Assembly: GCF_019468465.1 (NCBI RefSeq)
Contig: NZ_CP080519.1
Coordinates: 2,619,001 to 2,683,000 of the forward strand
DNA from: Amycolatopsis sp. DSM 110486
GTDB taxonomy: Bacteria > Actinomycetota > Actinomycetes > Mycobacteriales > Pseudonocardiaceae
Direction: 5' to 3'
DNA length: 64,000 nucleotides
This document shows, one piece after another, positions 4,602 through 9,733 of the stretch. The notes beneath the pieces were generated by a model. It had not been told where the DNA came from. It searched no databases and worked only from the letters and a program-made list of their open reading frames with translations. Each line of letters starts with the position of its first letter. The stretch's first letter is position 1. Both the position numbers and the translations under genes were made by a program.

Positions 4602-5426
4602 CTACAGGTTGCGCGTCGCCAGGTGGCGCCGGCGACGCAGGGTCGATCGGGGCCGGACGACGCACGTCGCGGGGGCGACGCGGGGTGCCGGGCGAGCGGC
4701 GGCGCGGTGGGCGCTGTGCAGCCACAGGACGTCGCGGCCGAAGGAACACACGAGCGTGACCAGGGCGGCCATCGTGACGGCCAGGCCCGCCAGGTGCGGC
4801 AGCAGGCCCGAGCCCGCGGCCACCAGCAGCACACCCTGCAGCGCGGCGACCACCTTGCGCGCCCGGCTGGGCGGCAGCGCGCCGTTGAGCCACGGCAGGG
4901 CCCAGGACGCCGCGACGAACGCGTAGCGCATCAGGCCGATGGCGAGGACCCAGTAGCCGAACGTCTCCGCGGCCAGCACGCTGAGCACCAGGATGAGGAA
5001 CGCGTCGGACTCCATGTCGAACCGCGCACCGAGCGCCGAGGACGTGCCGGTGCGGCGCGCGACCTGCCCGTCGACGGCGTCCAGCGCCAGTGCGACGGAC
5101 GCCAGCGGCACGAGCACCGCGAGCGGCACTCCCCCGTTCAGGTGGTCTGCGACCAGCGCCGTGACGCCGCCGATGAGGATGGCGCGGGTGAGCGTGACGT
5201 GGTCGGCGGGGCCCAGTGACCGGGCTCCGGCTTTGCGCGCGGCGCCCGCGAGCAGGGCCCACAGGCCGACGGTGTACGCCAGGCCCGCGGCCCAGCCGGC
5301 GGCGCCGAGGCCGACGGTCAGGGCGAGCACGCCCAGCAGCGCCACCTGGGCTCCGGCACCCGCGGCCTGCTGCCGAACGAGTGAACCCACGGTGGAACGT
5401 GATCGTGTAGTGGTGGTGACAGCCAT
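4602..5426 (-). CDS. CDP-alcohol phosphatidyltransferase family membrane protein
   Basis: 274 aa from ATG at 5426. The signature DxxDGxxAR, then G, D and D at the family spacing, is complete: DAVDGQVAR near 133-141, G at 150, and Asp in FDMESD. These residues bind Mg2+ and the CDP-alcohol. Several hydrophobic segments flank it, as expected for a polytopic enzyme joining a CDP-activated alcohol or lipid to an acceptor hydroxyl. The acceptor is unknown. It is divergent from the dehydrogenase at 5460 with only 33 bp between start codons, so the two probably share regulation and pathway. The frame remains open upstream to 6827, but that extension is antisense shadow of the next two genes. Confidence 0.88.
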   Translation of the reverse strand: MAVTTTTRSRSTVGSLVRQQAAGAGAQVALLGVLALTVGLGAAGWAAGLAYTVGLWALLAGAARKAGARSLGPADHVTLTRAILIGGVTALVADHLNGGVPLAVLVPLASVALALDAVDGQVARRTGTSSALGARFDMESDAFLILVLSVLAAETFGYWVLAIGLMRYAFVAASWALPWLNGALPPSRARKVVAALQGVLLVAAGSGLLPHLAGLAVTMAALVTLVCSFGRDVLWLHSAHRAAARPAPRVAPATCVVRPRSTLRRRRHLATRNL

Positions 5427-5459
5427 ATCGCCTCGATCTCGCGGCAGAGGAGGACGACC

Positions 5460-6434
5460 ATGACACGTACGGGACAGGCCTTCTGGTTCAAATCCGCCGG
5501 AACCGGTGAGATCCGGGCGGCGGAGATTCCGGAGCCGGGACCGGACGAAGTGCTGGTCAGGACCCTGTTTTCCGGCATGAGCCGTGGCACCGAAAGTTTG
5601 GTGCTGCGCGGCGGCGTGCCCGAGAGCCAGCGCGAGGTGATGCGCGCGCCGTTCCAGGAGGGCGACTTCCCGTTCCCGGTGAAGTACGGCTACCTGAACG
5701 TCGGGCGCGTCGAAGCCGGGCCGGGTGAGCTGGTGGGGCGGACGGTGTTCAGCCTCTTCCCGCACCAGACCGAGTTCGTGGTGCCGGCCTCGGCGGTCAC
5801 GGTGGTGCCGGACGACGTGCCGGCCGCGCGGGCGATCCTCGCGGGCACCGTGGAGACGGCCGTGAACGCGCTGTGGGACGCCGCGCCGCTGGTCGGCGAC
5901 CGGATCGCCGTGGTGGGGGCCGGGATGGTCGGCAGCAGCGTCGCCGGGCTGCTTTCCCGCTTCCCGGGAGTGGACGTCCAGCTCGTGGACACCGATCCGG
6001 CTCGGGAGAAGGTCGCGGCGGCGTTCGGCATCCGCTACGTGCGGCCGGAGGACGCCGAGGGCGATCTCGACCTCGTGGTGCACGCGAGCGCGACCGACGC
6101 GGGGCTCGCGCGGTCGCTGGAGCTGCTGGGCCGCGAGGCGACGGTGGTGGACCTGAGCTGGTACGGCGACCGGCGCGTGAGCGTGCCGCTGGGCGAGAAC
6201 TTCCACTCGCGGCGGCTGACGATCCGCAGCAGCCAGGTGGGCACGGTCTCCCCCGCCCGGTCCGCGCGGCGCACCTACGGTGACCGCATGGCCACGGCGC
6301 TGCGGCTGCTGGCCGATCCGGCGTTCGACGTGCTCGTGACCGGCGAGACCGCGTTCGAAGATCTGCCGAACCTGATCTCCCGCCTGGCCGGCGGGGACCT
6401 GCCGGGGCTCGCGCACCGGATCGTTTACCCGTAA
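5460..6434 (+). CDS. Zinc-independent medium-chain dehydrogenase/reductase
   Basis: 324 aa, ATG preceded by GAGGAGG. N-terminal GroES-like part (EIPEPGPDEVLVRTLFSGMSRG split by its glycine loop) and Rossmann part with VVGAGMVGSSVAGLL (near 159-173), where GxGxxG binds NAD(P). The catalytic-zinc motif GHExxGxV of MDR alcohol dehydrogenases is replaced by a KYGYLNVGRVE-like segment and the protein has no cysteine at all, so neither catalytic nor structural zinc is expected. This type is often labelled zinc-binding dehydrogenase in genomes, which looks wrong here. First gene of a three-gene rightward unit with the pterin-synthase homologue and methyltransferase. It likely oxidises or reduces an intermediate of that unknown pathway. 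Confidence 0.85.
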   Translation: MTRTGQAFWFKSAGTGEIRAAEIPEPGPDEVLVRTLFSGMSRGTESLVLRGGVPESQREVMRAPFQEGDFPFPVKYGYLNVGRVEAGPGELVGRTVFSLFPHQTEFVVPASAVTVVPDDVPAARAILAGTVETAVNALWDAAPLVGDRIAVVGAGMVGSSVAGLLSRFPGVDVQLVDTDPAREKVAAAFGIRYVRPEDAEGDLDLVVHASATDAGLARSLELLGREATVVDLSWYGDRRVSVPLGENFHSRRLTIRSSQVGTVSPARSARRTYGDRMATALRLLADPAFDVLVTGETAFEDLPNLISRLAGGDLPGLAHRIVYP

Positions 6435-6449
6435 GTTCTTGTGATTCCT

Positions 6450-6455
6450 AAGGAG
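6450..6455 (+). promoter_or_regulatory. Shine-Dalgarno AAGGAG fixing a TTG start at 6462
   Basis: AAGGAG lies 6 nt before TTG at 6462. The in-frame GTG at 6441 would place this ribosome site inside the coding region, so TTG 6462 is the better start. Confidence 0.8.
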
Positions 6456-6461
6456 AAAACC

Positions 6462-6860
6462 TTGTTCAGCGTCACCGTCCGCGACCACATCATGGTCGCC
6501 CACAGCTTCCGCGGTGAGGTCTTCGGTCCGGCGCAGAAGCTGCACGGCGCCACGTTCGTCGTCGACGCCACGTTCCGCCGCACCGACCTCGACGCCGACA
6601 ACATCGTGGTCGACATCGGCCTCGCGACGCAGAAGCTGGGCTCCGTGCTTGCCGACCTCAACTACCGCAACCTCGACGACGACCCGGCGTTCGAGGGCAT
6701 CAACACTTCCACGGAGTACCTGGCGAAGGTGATCGCCGACCGGCTGGCCGACGCCGTGCACGCCGGGGAGCTCGGCGAAGGTGCCCGCGGGCTGTCGGGG
6801 ATTTCGGTGACGTTGCACGAGTCGCACGTCGCTTCGGCCGGGTACGAGCGTTCGCTTTGA
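6462..6860 (+). CDS. 6-pyruvoyl-tetrahydropterin synthase / QueD-family homologue with altered active site
   Basis: 132 aa from TTG at 6462. The fold is recognisable: [26 protein letters not shown], then [15 protein letters not shown] (family NPT-x-E region) and VTLHESHV near the end. The canonical enzyme has three zinc His (one in the first strand, two in HGH), a catalytic Cys four residues before HGH, and an Asp-His pair. Here H14 and H28 remain, but HGH has become HGA (A30), the Cys position is A24, and the Asp-His of LDHxxLN aligns with Asn-Tyr in a LNYRNLD segment. Standard dihydroneopterin triphosphate chemistry is therefore unlikely. It sits between a dehydrogenase and a methyltransferase that overlaps it by 4 bp, implying a dedicated pathway. 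Assignment of the fold is confident; the function is not known. Confidence 0.85.
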
Positions 6861-7600
6861 CCGAGGTGGATCCGTCCGGCTACGCGCCGGAGTGGTTGCG
6901 GCTGCGGGAAGGCGCCGATTCCGTCGCGCGGGCTGCGTCCCTTGTGGACTCGCTCGCGTTGGCCGCGCCGGTCGTGGTCCGAGATCTGGGCTGTGGCACC
7001 GGTTCCATGAGCCGCTGGCTCACGGGCCGGTTGCCGCAGCCGCAGCGGTGGATCCTGCACGACCAGGATCCGGGGCTGGTGCGGCTGGCTGTCGCGGGTG
7101 TTCAGAATGCGACAGGCGAGGTTCGGGATGTCACACGGCTGACGGCGGCGGATCTTTCGGGAACGTCGCTGGTGACCGCGTCGGCGTTGCTGGACCTGTT
7201 CACGGCCGAGGAGATCCGGCGGTTGGTCGACGCTTGCGCAGGGGCGCGGGTGCCGGCTTTGCTGACGTTGTCGGTGGTCGGGCGGGTCGCGCTCACTCCG
7301 GCCGACCCGCGCGACGAGGCGGTGGGGGCGGCGTTCAACGCCCACCAGCGCCGGGAGGATCGGCTGGGGCCGGAGGCGGTGGCGTTCGCGGCTGCCGAGT
7401 TCGCTGCGCGCGGGTTCACGGTGAAGCGGGCGGCGACGCCGTGGCGGCTGGGAGCCGGGGATGCGGCATTGATCGAGACGTGGTTCTCGGGCTGGGTTTC
7501 CGCGGCGGCAGAGGAGAATCCGTCGTTGGACTTGTCGGGGTATCGCCGGGTGCTCGACACGGTGGTTGTGGAGCACGAGGACTTGCTGGCTCTGCCTTAG
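6857..7600 (+). CDS. Class I SAM-dependent methyltransferase
   Basis: 247 aa starting at TTG 6857, overlapping the preceding stop as TTGA, which implies translational coupling. Motif I is [14 protein letters not shown] near residues 42-55, followed by [11 protein letters not shown] (acidic loop binding the SAM ribose) and [10 protein letters not shown] near motif IV. The N-terminal [13 protein letters not shown] segment is a family-typical cap. As the last gene of the three-gene pterin-like unit, it probably methylates the product of that pathway; the substrate cannot be inferred. Homologues I recall sit beside the same degenerate pterin-synthase gene, but this needs a neighbourhood search. 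Confidence 0.87.
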
Positions 7601-7622: not shown

Positions 7623-8582
7623 TCAGCCGTCGGCCTCGCGGCGGGCTTTGGCTCGCCGTTTGCCCTCGTGCATCGCGGCGACGCGGGCGATCGGAATGGT
7701 GTGGCCTTCGGCGACGAGGTCGTCCGGAAGTGCCTGCGGTGCGGGCATTTCCGTCGCCCACGGGTCGGTGTCGCCGAGGAGGTCGAGTGCCGTGTGGACG
7801 GTGAAGTCGCGCGGAGTCACGTCGTCGGCCGCGGCCCACGGGATCGGGAACGACACGGTCAGGCCGGGCCGCACGCGCGGGCTGTAGGCGGCGACCACGG
7901 TGGCGCCGCCGGCGCGGGTGGAGTCGAGGAACACCTTGCCGTGGCGGTCTTCGCGGATGAACGCGGTGGTGGCGAGCTCCGGGTCGAGGCGTTCGGCGCG
8001 GGCGGCGATCGCGCGGGTGGCGGCGGCGACGTCTTCGTGGGCCTGGCCGGGCTTCAGGGGTACGAAGACGTGGACGCCCTTGGAACCGCTGGTTTTCAAC
8101 GCGCCGGCCAGCCCGGCGTCGGCGAGAGCTTGACGGACCAGGCGCGCACCCGCGACGGCCAGTCCGAACGGCGCGCCCTCGGGTGGGTCCAGGTCCATGA
8201 TCAGGTGGGTCGGACCTTGGGTGTGTTCGAAAAGCGTCAACGTGGGGTGGTATTCGATCGCGCGCTGGTTGCCGAACCACAGAAGCGTGGGGCGATCGTT
8301 GCACAACGCGTAGGAAACTTCCCGCTTCGAACTCTCGGCCCACAGCTTCACGCGCGGCACCCACTCGGGCGTGTACTTCGGCAGGTTCTTCTGCATGAAC
8401 GCGTCCTGCCCGCGCAGCACGCGCACGACCGACAGCGGCCGGTCGTGCAGCACCGGCAGCAGCCGCTCCGAGACGCCGTCGAGGTAGTCGAGCAGGTCGC
8501 GTTTGGTCGCACCGGCGTCGGCGAACAGCGGCTGGTCGAGATTGGTCAGTTTGACACCCTCGCGTACGTCGTCGCTGCTCAT
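7623..8582 (-). CDS. Stand-alone LigD-type polymerase/primase domain (NHEJ)
   Basis: 319 aa from ATG at 8582 with GAAGG about 7 nt upstream. Archaeo-eukaryotic primase-like fold of the LigD POL domain: KLTNLDQPLF at the N-terminus, catalytic metal-binding Asp130 and Asp132 in LIMDLDPPEG, TSGSKGVHVFVPL near 164-176 (nucleotide binding), and third Asp220 in KVFLDSTRAGG. Such enzymes add ribonucleotides and fill gaps at broken ends. Here the domain is a separate protein without ligase or nuclease domain, common in actinobacteria where Ku and ligase lie elsewhere. No Ku gene is visible in this window. Downstream of the MpaB-family gene by 41 bp; possibly co-transcribed without a functional link. 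Confidence 0.9.
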   Translation of the reverse strand: MSSDDVREGVKLTNLDQPLFADAGATKRDLLDYLDGVSERLLPVLHDRPLSVVRVLRGQDAFMQKNLPKYTPEWVPRVKLWAESSKREVSYALCNDRPTLLWFGNQRAIEYHPTLTLFEHTQGPTHLIMDLDPPEGAPFGLAVAGARLVRQALADAGLAGALKTSGSKGVHVFVPLKPGQAHEDVAAATRAIAARAERLDPELATTAFIREDRHGKVFLDSTRAGGATVVAAYSPRVRPGLTVSFPIPWAAADDVTPRDFTVHTALDLLGDTDPWATEMPAPQALPDDLVAEGHTIPIARVAAMHEGKRRAKARREADG

Positions 8583-8623
8583 CGGCCTACCTTCGCCCAC
8601 CACGCGGGCGCCGGTCAACCGCT

Positions 8624-9421
8624 TCACACGAGCGGACGGCCCTCGCGGTAGCGCTTGCGGAGGTCGCGCAGGTACGCGTTGTAGGGGAACCGCTGCACGC
8701 TGCGCGGGAGGCGCCGCACGACGTGTCCGATGCCGCGCATGAGACGTTCGAATGTGCGCTGATCGTATTCGGTCCACGACAGCCGCATGTGCTCGCGGAA
8801 ACACGCGGGCAGGAACCCGGTCGTCACGAACCGGTGGAACCGCCCGAACACCAGCGCGACCGGCCGCGGCAGGAACCGCAGGTCGACGAGGTCCCCGAGG
8901 TACGCGCGGGTGCGGTCGTCGAAGGTGACGCGTTGGAGCCCCTCGGCCCAGTACTTCGCGAACGCCTCGCGGTCCTCGGGCCACATCTCCGGCCGCACCT
9001 GCAACGTCGTGCCGAGCACCACGGCCTCGGCGTACAGCTCCTCGGGCGCGGCGCCACCGAAGAACGCCACGTGGACGTCCTCGAGTCCCTTGTAGAGACA
9101 CGCGGCAACCCAGAGCTGCAGCTCCGGATCGAAGGCGTTGTAACCGACGGGGCTGTCCTTTGTGGATCTGACGTGCCGATGAGACCCGTTGACCGCCCTG
9201 CGGTACGCCTTGCGCTCGTCGTCGGTCCCGAACGTCGCGACCGCCAAATAGGTCCCCGTGGTGCGCGCGCGTTTGACCGGGTGCCTGAACAGGTTCCCGC
9301 TCTCGACACTGCTCTCCATCACCCCGTACCCCACCGGGGCCCGCCCGAGCTGCATGATCACGTTGGCGCTGCCGGCCATCAGCCCCATTCCGACCATGGC
9401 CTTCTTGAGCGCGTCACCCAT
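8624..9421 (-). CDS. Oxygenase MpaB family protein (DUF2236)
   Basis: 265 aa from ATG at 9421 with GGGAGG about 6 nt upstream; the in-frame TTG at 9442 is less likely. All-helical family including fungal MpaB and rubber-degrading latex clearing protein, several of which bind haem b. Typical parts: NLFRHPVKRARTTGTYLAVA near 49-68, GTDDERKAYRRAVNGSHRHV (about 71-90), a conserved Arg/His-rich core, and ELQLWVAACLYKGL near 106. The C-terminal FERLMRGIGHVVRRLP segment is also typical. Substrate unknown; oxidative cleavage of a lipid or isoprenoid is a guess from the family. Confidence 0.85.
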   Translation of the reverse strand: MGDALKKAMVGMGLMAGSANVIMQLGRAPVGYGVMESSVESGNLFRHPVKRARTTGTYLAVATFGTDDERKAYRRAVNGSHRHVRSTKDSPVGYNAFDPELQLWVAACLYKGLEDVHVAFFGGAAPEELYAEAVVLGTTLQVRPEMWPEDREAFAKYWAEGLQRVTFDDRTRAYLGDLVDLRFLPRPVALVFGRFHRFVTTGFLPACFREHMRLSWTEYDQRTFERLMRGIGHVVRRLPRSVQRFPYNAYLRDLRKRYREGRPLV

Positions 9422-9733
9422 GGCGCCTCCCGTCGGGATCAAGGAAACGCGACTGTTTACGTCGAGTCAAGAGCCGCCCGAGCCGCGTCCACGCTCCCGA
9501 GCCATCAGCCGAGGTGATCCCCGCCGCACTCGACCGGGGAGGTCGCGGCCACGCGGTTCACGCTGATCTAACGTGAGGCCCCGAGTCGCCAGTGAGGGCG
9601 GCCCGCTCCCGCGGACGGGTTGGGCGGCGCCCCGCGGTGGCCGCCGGGCTGGAGAAGCCGGGGGTGAAACCCCAGGCGCGTCGGCGGCGCGTCCCAGCGA
9701 GTCAGGGCGTGTGGCGTGCCGAAGGTGTTCCGA
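9422..9733. other. Intergenic region between divergent MpaB-family and SulP genes
   Basis: About 310 bp of promoter-side DNA. I find no ORF with family character on either strand, no strong hairpin and no clear -10/-35 pair. The short ORFs here have Arg/Pro/Gly-rich translations typical of shadow frames. Confidence 0.5.

Follow-up and report, generated by a model that had tools for sequence, protein, structure and literature searches.

Four adjacent genes at positions 4602 to 7600 of the 64,000-nucleotide stretch of Amycolatopsis sp. DSM 110486 analysed here (the window) are probably the core remnant of an actinobacterial pathway built around PTPS-IV, a subfamily of 6-pyruvoyltetrahydropterin synthase (PTPS) homologues. 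The genes encode a membrane-embedded CDP-alcohol phosphotransferase (CDP-AP; 4602..5426, minus strand) and, divergently across 33 bp (5427..5459), three plus-strand products: a medium-chain dehydrogenase/reductase (MDR)-like protein (5460..6434), the PTPS-IV protein (6462..6860) and a class I SAM-dependent methyltransferase-like protein (6857..7600). They belong to a set of about nine families that is widely conserved in actinobacteria. The reading that we favour, with a probability of roughly 0.6, is that this set converts GTP, via a formylamino- and a diaminopyrimidine, into a pterin-like product that would undergo methylation, redox adjustment and glycosylation and be handled at the membrane.

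A preliminary description, made from the window alone, had placed a novel four-gene system here around a catalytically altered PTPS homologue, distinct from queuosine, biopterin or folate synthesis and possibly linked to lipids. The four genes and their divergent gap are confirmed, the loss of catalytic residues and the distinction from those three pathways have been borne out, and membrane or lipid handling is plausible. However, the system is not one of four genes but part of the larger set, several members of which lie elsewhere in the genome that contains the window. The likely precursor, GTP by way of the formylamino- and diaminopyrimidine, was invisible to that description because its genes lie outside the window. 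PTPS-IV, two of its neighbours and a solved structure (3d7j) were already public, and the wider set was not found in the open-licence literature.

A conserved gene set in actinobacteria

A contig scan recovered at least 238 PTPS relatives, and the best 80 loci were used, so that the sample is biased to close relatives. Locus counts were obtained by tblastn, families were named by running Pfam on representatives, and the 62/80 loci in which the PTPS gene is flanked by 8 kb or more on both sides form a full-flank subset. Within this subset, matches were found to the MDR in 62/62 loci, to a glycosyltransferase (GT) of the GT4 type and the methyltransferase in 61/62 each, and to CDP-AP and a flippase-like LPG_synthase_TM protein in 58/62 each. 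Frequent extra members are GTP cyclohydrolase II (44/62), a creatininase homologue (42/62) and a RibD-type reductase (RibD_C; 32/62). Four genes from the surroundings of the set in the window served as controls and were matched in only 0/62, 2/62, 1/62 and 3/62 loci; chance neighbourhood is thereby ruled out for the core genes (58-62/62 against 0-3/62), and the four window genes are conserved together across actinobacteria, as the preliminary description had proposed to establish by a neighbourhood search.

Among all 80 loci the MDR is matched in 80/80, the methyltransferase in 78/80 and CDP-AP in 76/80, and the order in relatives is CDP-AP, then divergently MDR, PTPS, GT4, methyltransferase and flippase-like protein. 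In 69/80 loci the CDP-AP and MDR genes stand side by side and diverge; they are co-directional in 6 and far apart in 1, and 4 lack CDP-AP. The GT lies directly behind PTPS in 78/80 loci, and both exceptions are, like the window, from Amycolatopsis. Occasional members include a membrane sulfatase-like protein (PF00884; 17/80 loci, 12/62 with full flanks; e.g. L011:6430-8241) and an inositol monophosphatase-family protein (12/80 and 9/62; e.g. L015:13972-14748). When the 80 loci were searched with E. coli queries, RibA, which served as the positive control, was matched in 56/80 and the reductase part of RibD in 39/80, the deaminase part of RibD was matched in 1/80, and lumazine synthase, QueC, QueE and FolE were matched in 0/80; QueC and QueE are absent from the window as well.

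The same cohesion is seen within the genus. Forty Amycolatopsis genomes were profiled, with the GT and the creatininase homologue called at E<=1e-40 and at most 50 first-look GT candidates scored per genome. PTPS-IV and the GT each occur in 36/40, and the same four genomes lack both, so that the two agree in 40/40. This agreement includes 9/36 genomes in which the GT lies away from PTPS, either megabases apart on one contig (six) or on different draft contigs (three). The creatininase homologue is present in 27/40, and these are exactly the genomes whose GT adjoins PTPS. A cyclohydrolase linked to PTPS shows the same distribution, being found in those 27/40 too. We regard it as almost certain that the genes of the conserved set serve one pathway.

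An altered PTPS protein and its partners

The PTPS protein is the single PF01242 match (76.6 bits) in the 10.98-Mb window genome. In 6-carboxytetrahydropterin synthase (QueD), Glu110 anchors the pterin, Cys, His and Asp residues are catalytic, and His residues bind zinc. When 81 sequences (the window protein and its 80 relatives) were aligned to E. coli QueD, Cys27, His33 and His71 proved to be replaced in 81/81. Cys27 falls in a Cys-free stretch, with 78/81 sequences containing no Cys anywhere; His33 has become Ala (HGA for HGH); and among the triad residues His71 has become Tyr in 81/81 and Asp70 has become Asn in 76/81. The His31 and Glu110 equivalents are retained in 81/81. Two invariant residues, H16 and H21, compete for the position of the first zinc His, which leaves its assignment ambiguous. 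Judged from these alignment columns, the protein has lost the catalytic Cys, the triad His and one zinc His. It lacks the CxxxHGH motif of QueD (PTPS-I), scores 33.5 bits against a cut-off of 89.25 for the QueD model TIGR03367, and likewise departs from the triad and zinc site of PTPS-II (biopterin), having His to Tyr, Asp to Asn (76/81), no Cys and a zinc His changed to Ala.

The window protein can be assigned to PTPS-IV because it carries FGPAQ, the printed signature of that subfamily (FGPAQ in 76/81, FGPA[QR] in 81/81). Its closest solved structure is 3d7j, of S. coelicolor SCO6650 (E 1.8e-67), which is reported to lack both zinc and the triad, and SCO6650 is reportedly without PTPS activity. 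In a sample of the class, PTPS-IV was found in 19/118 genomes (E<=1e-30, the window genome counted). One class genome (G048) has two copies, at C134:2304-2699 and C111:14051-14440, with 73% and 65% identity to the window protein.

The partners also depart from convention. The preliminary description had noted a cysteine-free MDR, which holds for the window copy but is ruled out as a family trait, since this is the sole Cys-free row of 81 (the other 80 being tblastn-matched stretches). More informative is that S41, G43-T44-E45, G77 and Y78 are nearly invariant where zinc-ligand Cys and His would be usual, so that the catalytic zinc ligands of zinc-dependent alcohol dehydrogenases are missing from the alignment. 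A model of the protein has the MDR fold (pLDDT 88.2; top PDB match 2d8a, TMq 0.77, 19% identity). The catalytic motif of CDP-alcohol phosphotransferases, DxxDGxxARx8GxxxDxxxD, is present in 77/77 CDP-AP sequences (D..DG..AR.{8}G...D...D); a weak match to the archaetidylinositol phosphate synthase model (24.2 of 180 bits) leaves inositol no more than a guess. The top NCBIfam match of the GT is MshA (103 of 462.5 bits), and the DLGCGTGS motif of the methyltransferase is conserved.

The PTPS-IV subfamily and two of its neighbours are prior art. In the AGeNNT paper (PMC5445326), PTPS-IV is cluster 62, with 561 sequences and with PF00925 and PF01872 neighbours; PF00925 is labelled there 'GTP cyclohydrolase I / FolE2', and is thus misnamed, given that this Pfam family is GTP cyclohydrolase II. 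In the open-licence literature, which leaves out most subscription papers, no function for PTPS-IV was found, nor any account of the wider gene set, the genus co-occurrence, the dispersal or the residue-105 link described below.

Residue 105 and the creatininase homologue

Residue 105 (numbered by Tyr105 of the E. coli enzyme) could be read in 55 of 56 locus-linked cyclohydrolases and is Met in 29, His in 17, Gln in 1 and Tyr in 8, hence other than Tyr in 47/55. A creatininase homologue is present at 46/47 non-Tyr loci and at 0/8 Tyr loci (Fisher 7e-9), or 39/39 and 0/4 in the full-flank subset (8e-6), although these values overstate the link because the non-Tyr copies form one clade. In the cyclohydrolase tree the Tyr copies belong to other cyclohydrolase types, that of L030 on a long branch. 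The single non-Tyr locus without a creatininase homologue, L073, ends 0.9 kb behind PTPS; among the Tyr loci, three have only about 2 kb on the left, and at L030 the sequence stops 3.1 kb past the cyclohydrolase. In Amycolatopsis, 26/27 linked copies were read (Met 23, His 2, Leu 1, Tyr 0); the Leu, at L136 (G013), adds a fourth to the replacements Met, His and Gln.

The S. coelicolor paralogue SCO6655 is reported (Spoonamore 2006) to have Met at the Tyr105 position and to stop at the formyl intermediate. PMC3509567 states that altered activities of three Streptomyces cyclohydrolase isogenes were reported, and a creatininase-family AFRPP formamidase (BrbF) is proven in S. meliloti (PMC9478397). 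The residue-105 pattern is what a division of labour between a cyclohydrolase that opens GTP and a separate formamidase predicts.

Dispersal in the window genome

All matches of the window genome to cyclohydrolase II, RibD_C, creatininase, GT and LPG_synthase_TM lie outside the window. The GT that matches best (60% against the query from Streptomyces) adjoins an LPG_synthase_TM gene (C1:7131660-7133782), the single such match in the genome, and both are 4.5 Mb from PTPS. In a tree of 46 of the 83 GT rows, this GT falls among the second copies from Amycolatopsis clusters (100/99). Because it is a second-type copy by the tree, the PTPS-adjacent GT type is missing from the window genome, and the idea that the unlinked GT is the displaced PTPS-adjacent gene is ruled out. 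Five Amycolatopsis loci (L024, L033, L034, L044 and L075) have two GTs of this family, the second some 5 kb behind PTPS.

Six cyclohydrolase II matches occur in the window genome, and the five that were aligned all have Tyr105; among them is one stand-alone protein, of a kind also seen in Micromonosporaceae clusters. The RibD_C matches show 59% and 57% identity. A close creatininase homologue was not found in this genome, which gave only weak matches (33-40%). The front end of the pathway is probably supplied here by Tyr-type cyclohydrolases encoded elsewhere in the genome.

Proposed pathway and alternatives

From the observed composition, conservation and co-occurrence of the set and its active-site losses, we infer each reaction, the order of reactions and the product as follows. 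A GTP cyclohydrolase II with Met or His for Tyr105 would convert GTP to a formylaminopyrimidine nucleotide (AFRPP/FAPy), from which the creatininase-family formamidase would strip formate to give a 2,5-diamino-6-ribosylaminopyrimidine nucleotide; where Tyr105 is kept, the cyclohydrolase would reach the diaminopyrimidine unaided, and no formamidase accompanies it. We consider this GTP to formylamino- and diaminopyrimidine front end likely. Reduction of the ribosyl side chain is probably the task of the RibD-type reductase. The 2-amino-4-oxo, pterin-like pattern would be retained because the deaminase is missing, in keeping with the conserved Glu by which PTPS-IV would bind a pterin. This enzyme, using chemistry that dispenses with the Cys/His triad of its family, might then modify the base together with the zinc-less MDR and the methyltransferase, the GT4 enzyme might attach a sugar, and CDP-AP and the flippase-like protein might add a phospho-alcohol, carry the product across the membrane, or both. 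In the window Amycolatopsis the GT and the flippase-like gene would come from a second locus. That the product is both glycosylated and membrane-linked we rate at somewhat under even odds.

Several observations weigh against this pathway. The genus pattern probably follows clades, so that 40 genomes do not amount to 40 independent events, and the residue-105 pattern perhaps reflects, by the tree, just two or three independent replacements or losses. The creatininase homologue best fits MftE (131.4 of 172 bits, likewise short of the cut-off) and ArfB weakly; its 40.7 bits miss the 180-bit cut-off of NF033501, and identification as ArfB by model was rejected. Five loci have the creatininase homologue with no cyclohydrolase in reach and 19 loci have neither, and the RibD-type reductase is missing from all but 32 of the 62 full-flank loci. 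For the window genome itself, the GT is, as judged from the tree, of the second type rather than the PTPS-adjacent one. The Tyr cyclohydrolase typified by L101, considered as a specific stand-in for the lost linked copy, is a weak candidate that is not clade-specific, being present in 9/9 unlinked genomes but also in 11/27 and 1/4 of the others.

The best of the alternatives, although unlikely, is a soluble, secreted pterin or pyrimidine glycoside with no lipid part, for which the membrane genes would serve export only. The GT and the flippase-like protein are compatible with export. In addition, PMC2853524 ranks SCO6655 (-0.61) with the genes showing the strongest anticorrelation to predicted flux and says that most of these rise in stationary phase, a behaviour that would fit specialised metabolism. 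Against a lipid-free product stands CDP-AP, which is nearly as constant as PTPS (58/62).

Two further alternatives are improbable. In one, PTPS-IV acts in F420/Fo synthesis and the cluster supplies ribityl-diaminopyrimidine to F420; an unpublished link of PTPS-IV to F420 in archaea is mentioned by Zallot et al. 2016 (PMC5041015), the front-end enzymes would yield Fo-type precursors, and an F420-type LLM gene adjoins the set in the window. However, the LLM gene recurs in 0/62 loci, the uracil precursor would require a deaminase that just 1/80 loci has, and GT4, CDP-AP, the flippase-like protein and the methyltransferase are left unexplained. Moreover, F420 is widespread in actinobacteria, whereas PTPS-IV occurs in just 19/118 class genomes. 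In the other, the set forms a parallel riboflavin or flavin branch, such as one making flavins for secretion, in which AFRPP is processed by a split route like that of S. meliloti. The cyclohydrolase II, creatininase homologue and RibD-type reductase, together with the BrbF precedent (PMC9478397), are in its favour, but PTPS, GT and CDP-AP are unaccounted for, and the deaminase (1/80) and lumazine synthase (0/80) are missing, a count made at the loci only, such that genes elsewhere could supply these steps.

Finally, an ordinary QueD or 6-pyruvoyltetrahydropterin synthase that makes queuosine, folate or biopterin and has its neighbours by chance, as the source annotations of the relatives (6-carboxytetrahydropterin or 6-pyruvoyl-tetrahydropterin synthase) would have it, is scarcely credible and is ruled out as such by the replaced residues, the QueD model score, the absence of QueC, QueE and FolE partners (0/80) and neighbours conserved far beyond controls.

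More tentatively, the set may stand for a class of actinobacterial molecules not described before: pterin-like, glycosylated, linked to the membrane and made from GTP. A cyclohydrolase II might have lost its deformylation half (Tyr105 to Met or His) as a dedicated creatininase-family formamidase took over, the nucleotide would pass to a T-fold enzyme acting without the zinc, Cys and His chemistry of its family, and in the clade of the window the pathway would have survived loss of the front end and dispersal of the genes. At the centre of the findings is a PTPS that has lost catalytic residues, whose structure is solved and for which no function was found in print in the open-licence literature. 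Specific, inexpensive tests in laboratory streptomycetes follow from the gene set, the genus concordance and the coupling of residue 105 to the creatininase homologue, which might also explain why these bacteria retain several copies of GTP cyclohydrolase II.

Gene structure and surroundings in the window

The CDP-AP assignment rests on PF01066 (41.7 bits, cut-off 22), and that of the MDR on profile and alignment; the methyltransferase is barely above the PF13649 cut-off (27.4 against 27). The open reading frame list starts the PTPS gene at GTG 6441. TTG 6462 is the probable start, preferred because a Shine-Dalgarno-like AAGGAG lies at 6450..6455 on the plus strand, and it yields a protein of 132 aa, as long as most of the database relatives listed. 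The short overlaps that had been described hold for PTPS and the methyltransferase, which share 4 bp (6857-6860), the sole overlap among the four genes, but not for MDR and PTPS, which are separated by 27 bp with the TTG start.

The flanking F420-type LLM oxidoreductase, LigD-type Prim-Pol and MPAB-family genes are outside the conserved set (0/62, 2/62 and 1/62 loci). The stand-alone Prim-Pol and the MPAB-family gene lie behind the methyltransferase on the minus strand (7623-9442), as also at L002:7357-9186; near PTPS among the 80 loci, Prim-Pol was found in 4/80 and MPAB in 2/80.

Comparison with known systems

The protein resembles QueD (PTPS-I) in its PF01242 domain and in retaining the His31 and Glu110 equivalents; it differs in that Cys27, His33 and His71 are replaced and QueC and QueE are absent at the 80 loci. 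It is like PTPS-IV as printed (AGeNNT cluster 62; SCO6650, 3d7j) in FGPAQ, in the lost catalytic residues and in having relatives beside PF00925 and PF01872 genes (44/62 and 32/62), whereas the window locus has neither neighbour, its own genome's matches all lying outside the window. The cyclohydrolases resemble the S. coelicolor paralogue SCO6655 in Met at the Tyr105 position, reportedly present in that protein. Finally, the proposed front end resembles archaeal ArfA plus ArfB and BrbF of S. meliloti in placing a creatininase-family protein beside a GTP-opening enzyme, with AFRPP as the predicted intermediate. It differs from them in that the opener is a cyclohydrolase II with Tyr105 replaced rather than a GTP cyclohydrolase III, and from ArfB in that the creatininase homologue of PTPS-IV loci falls below the ArfB model cut-off.

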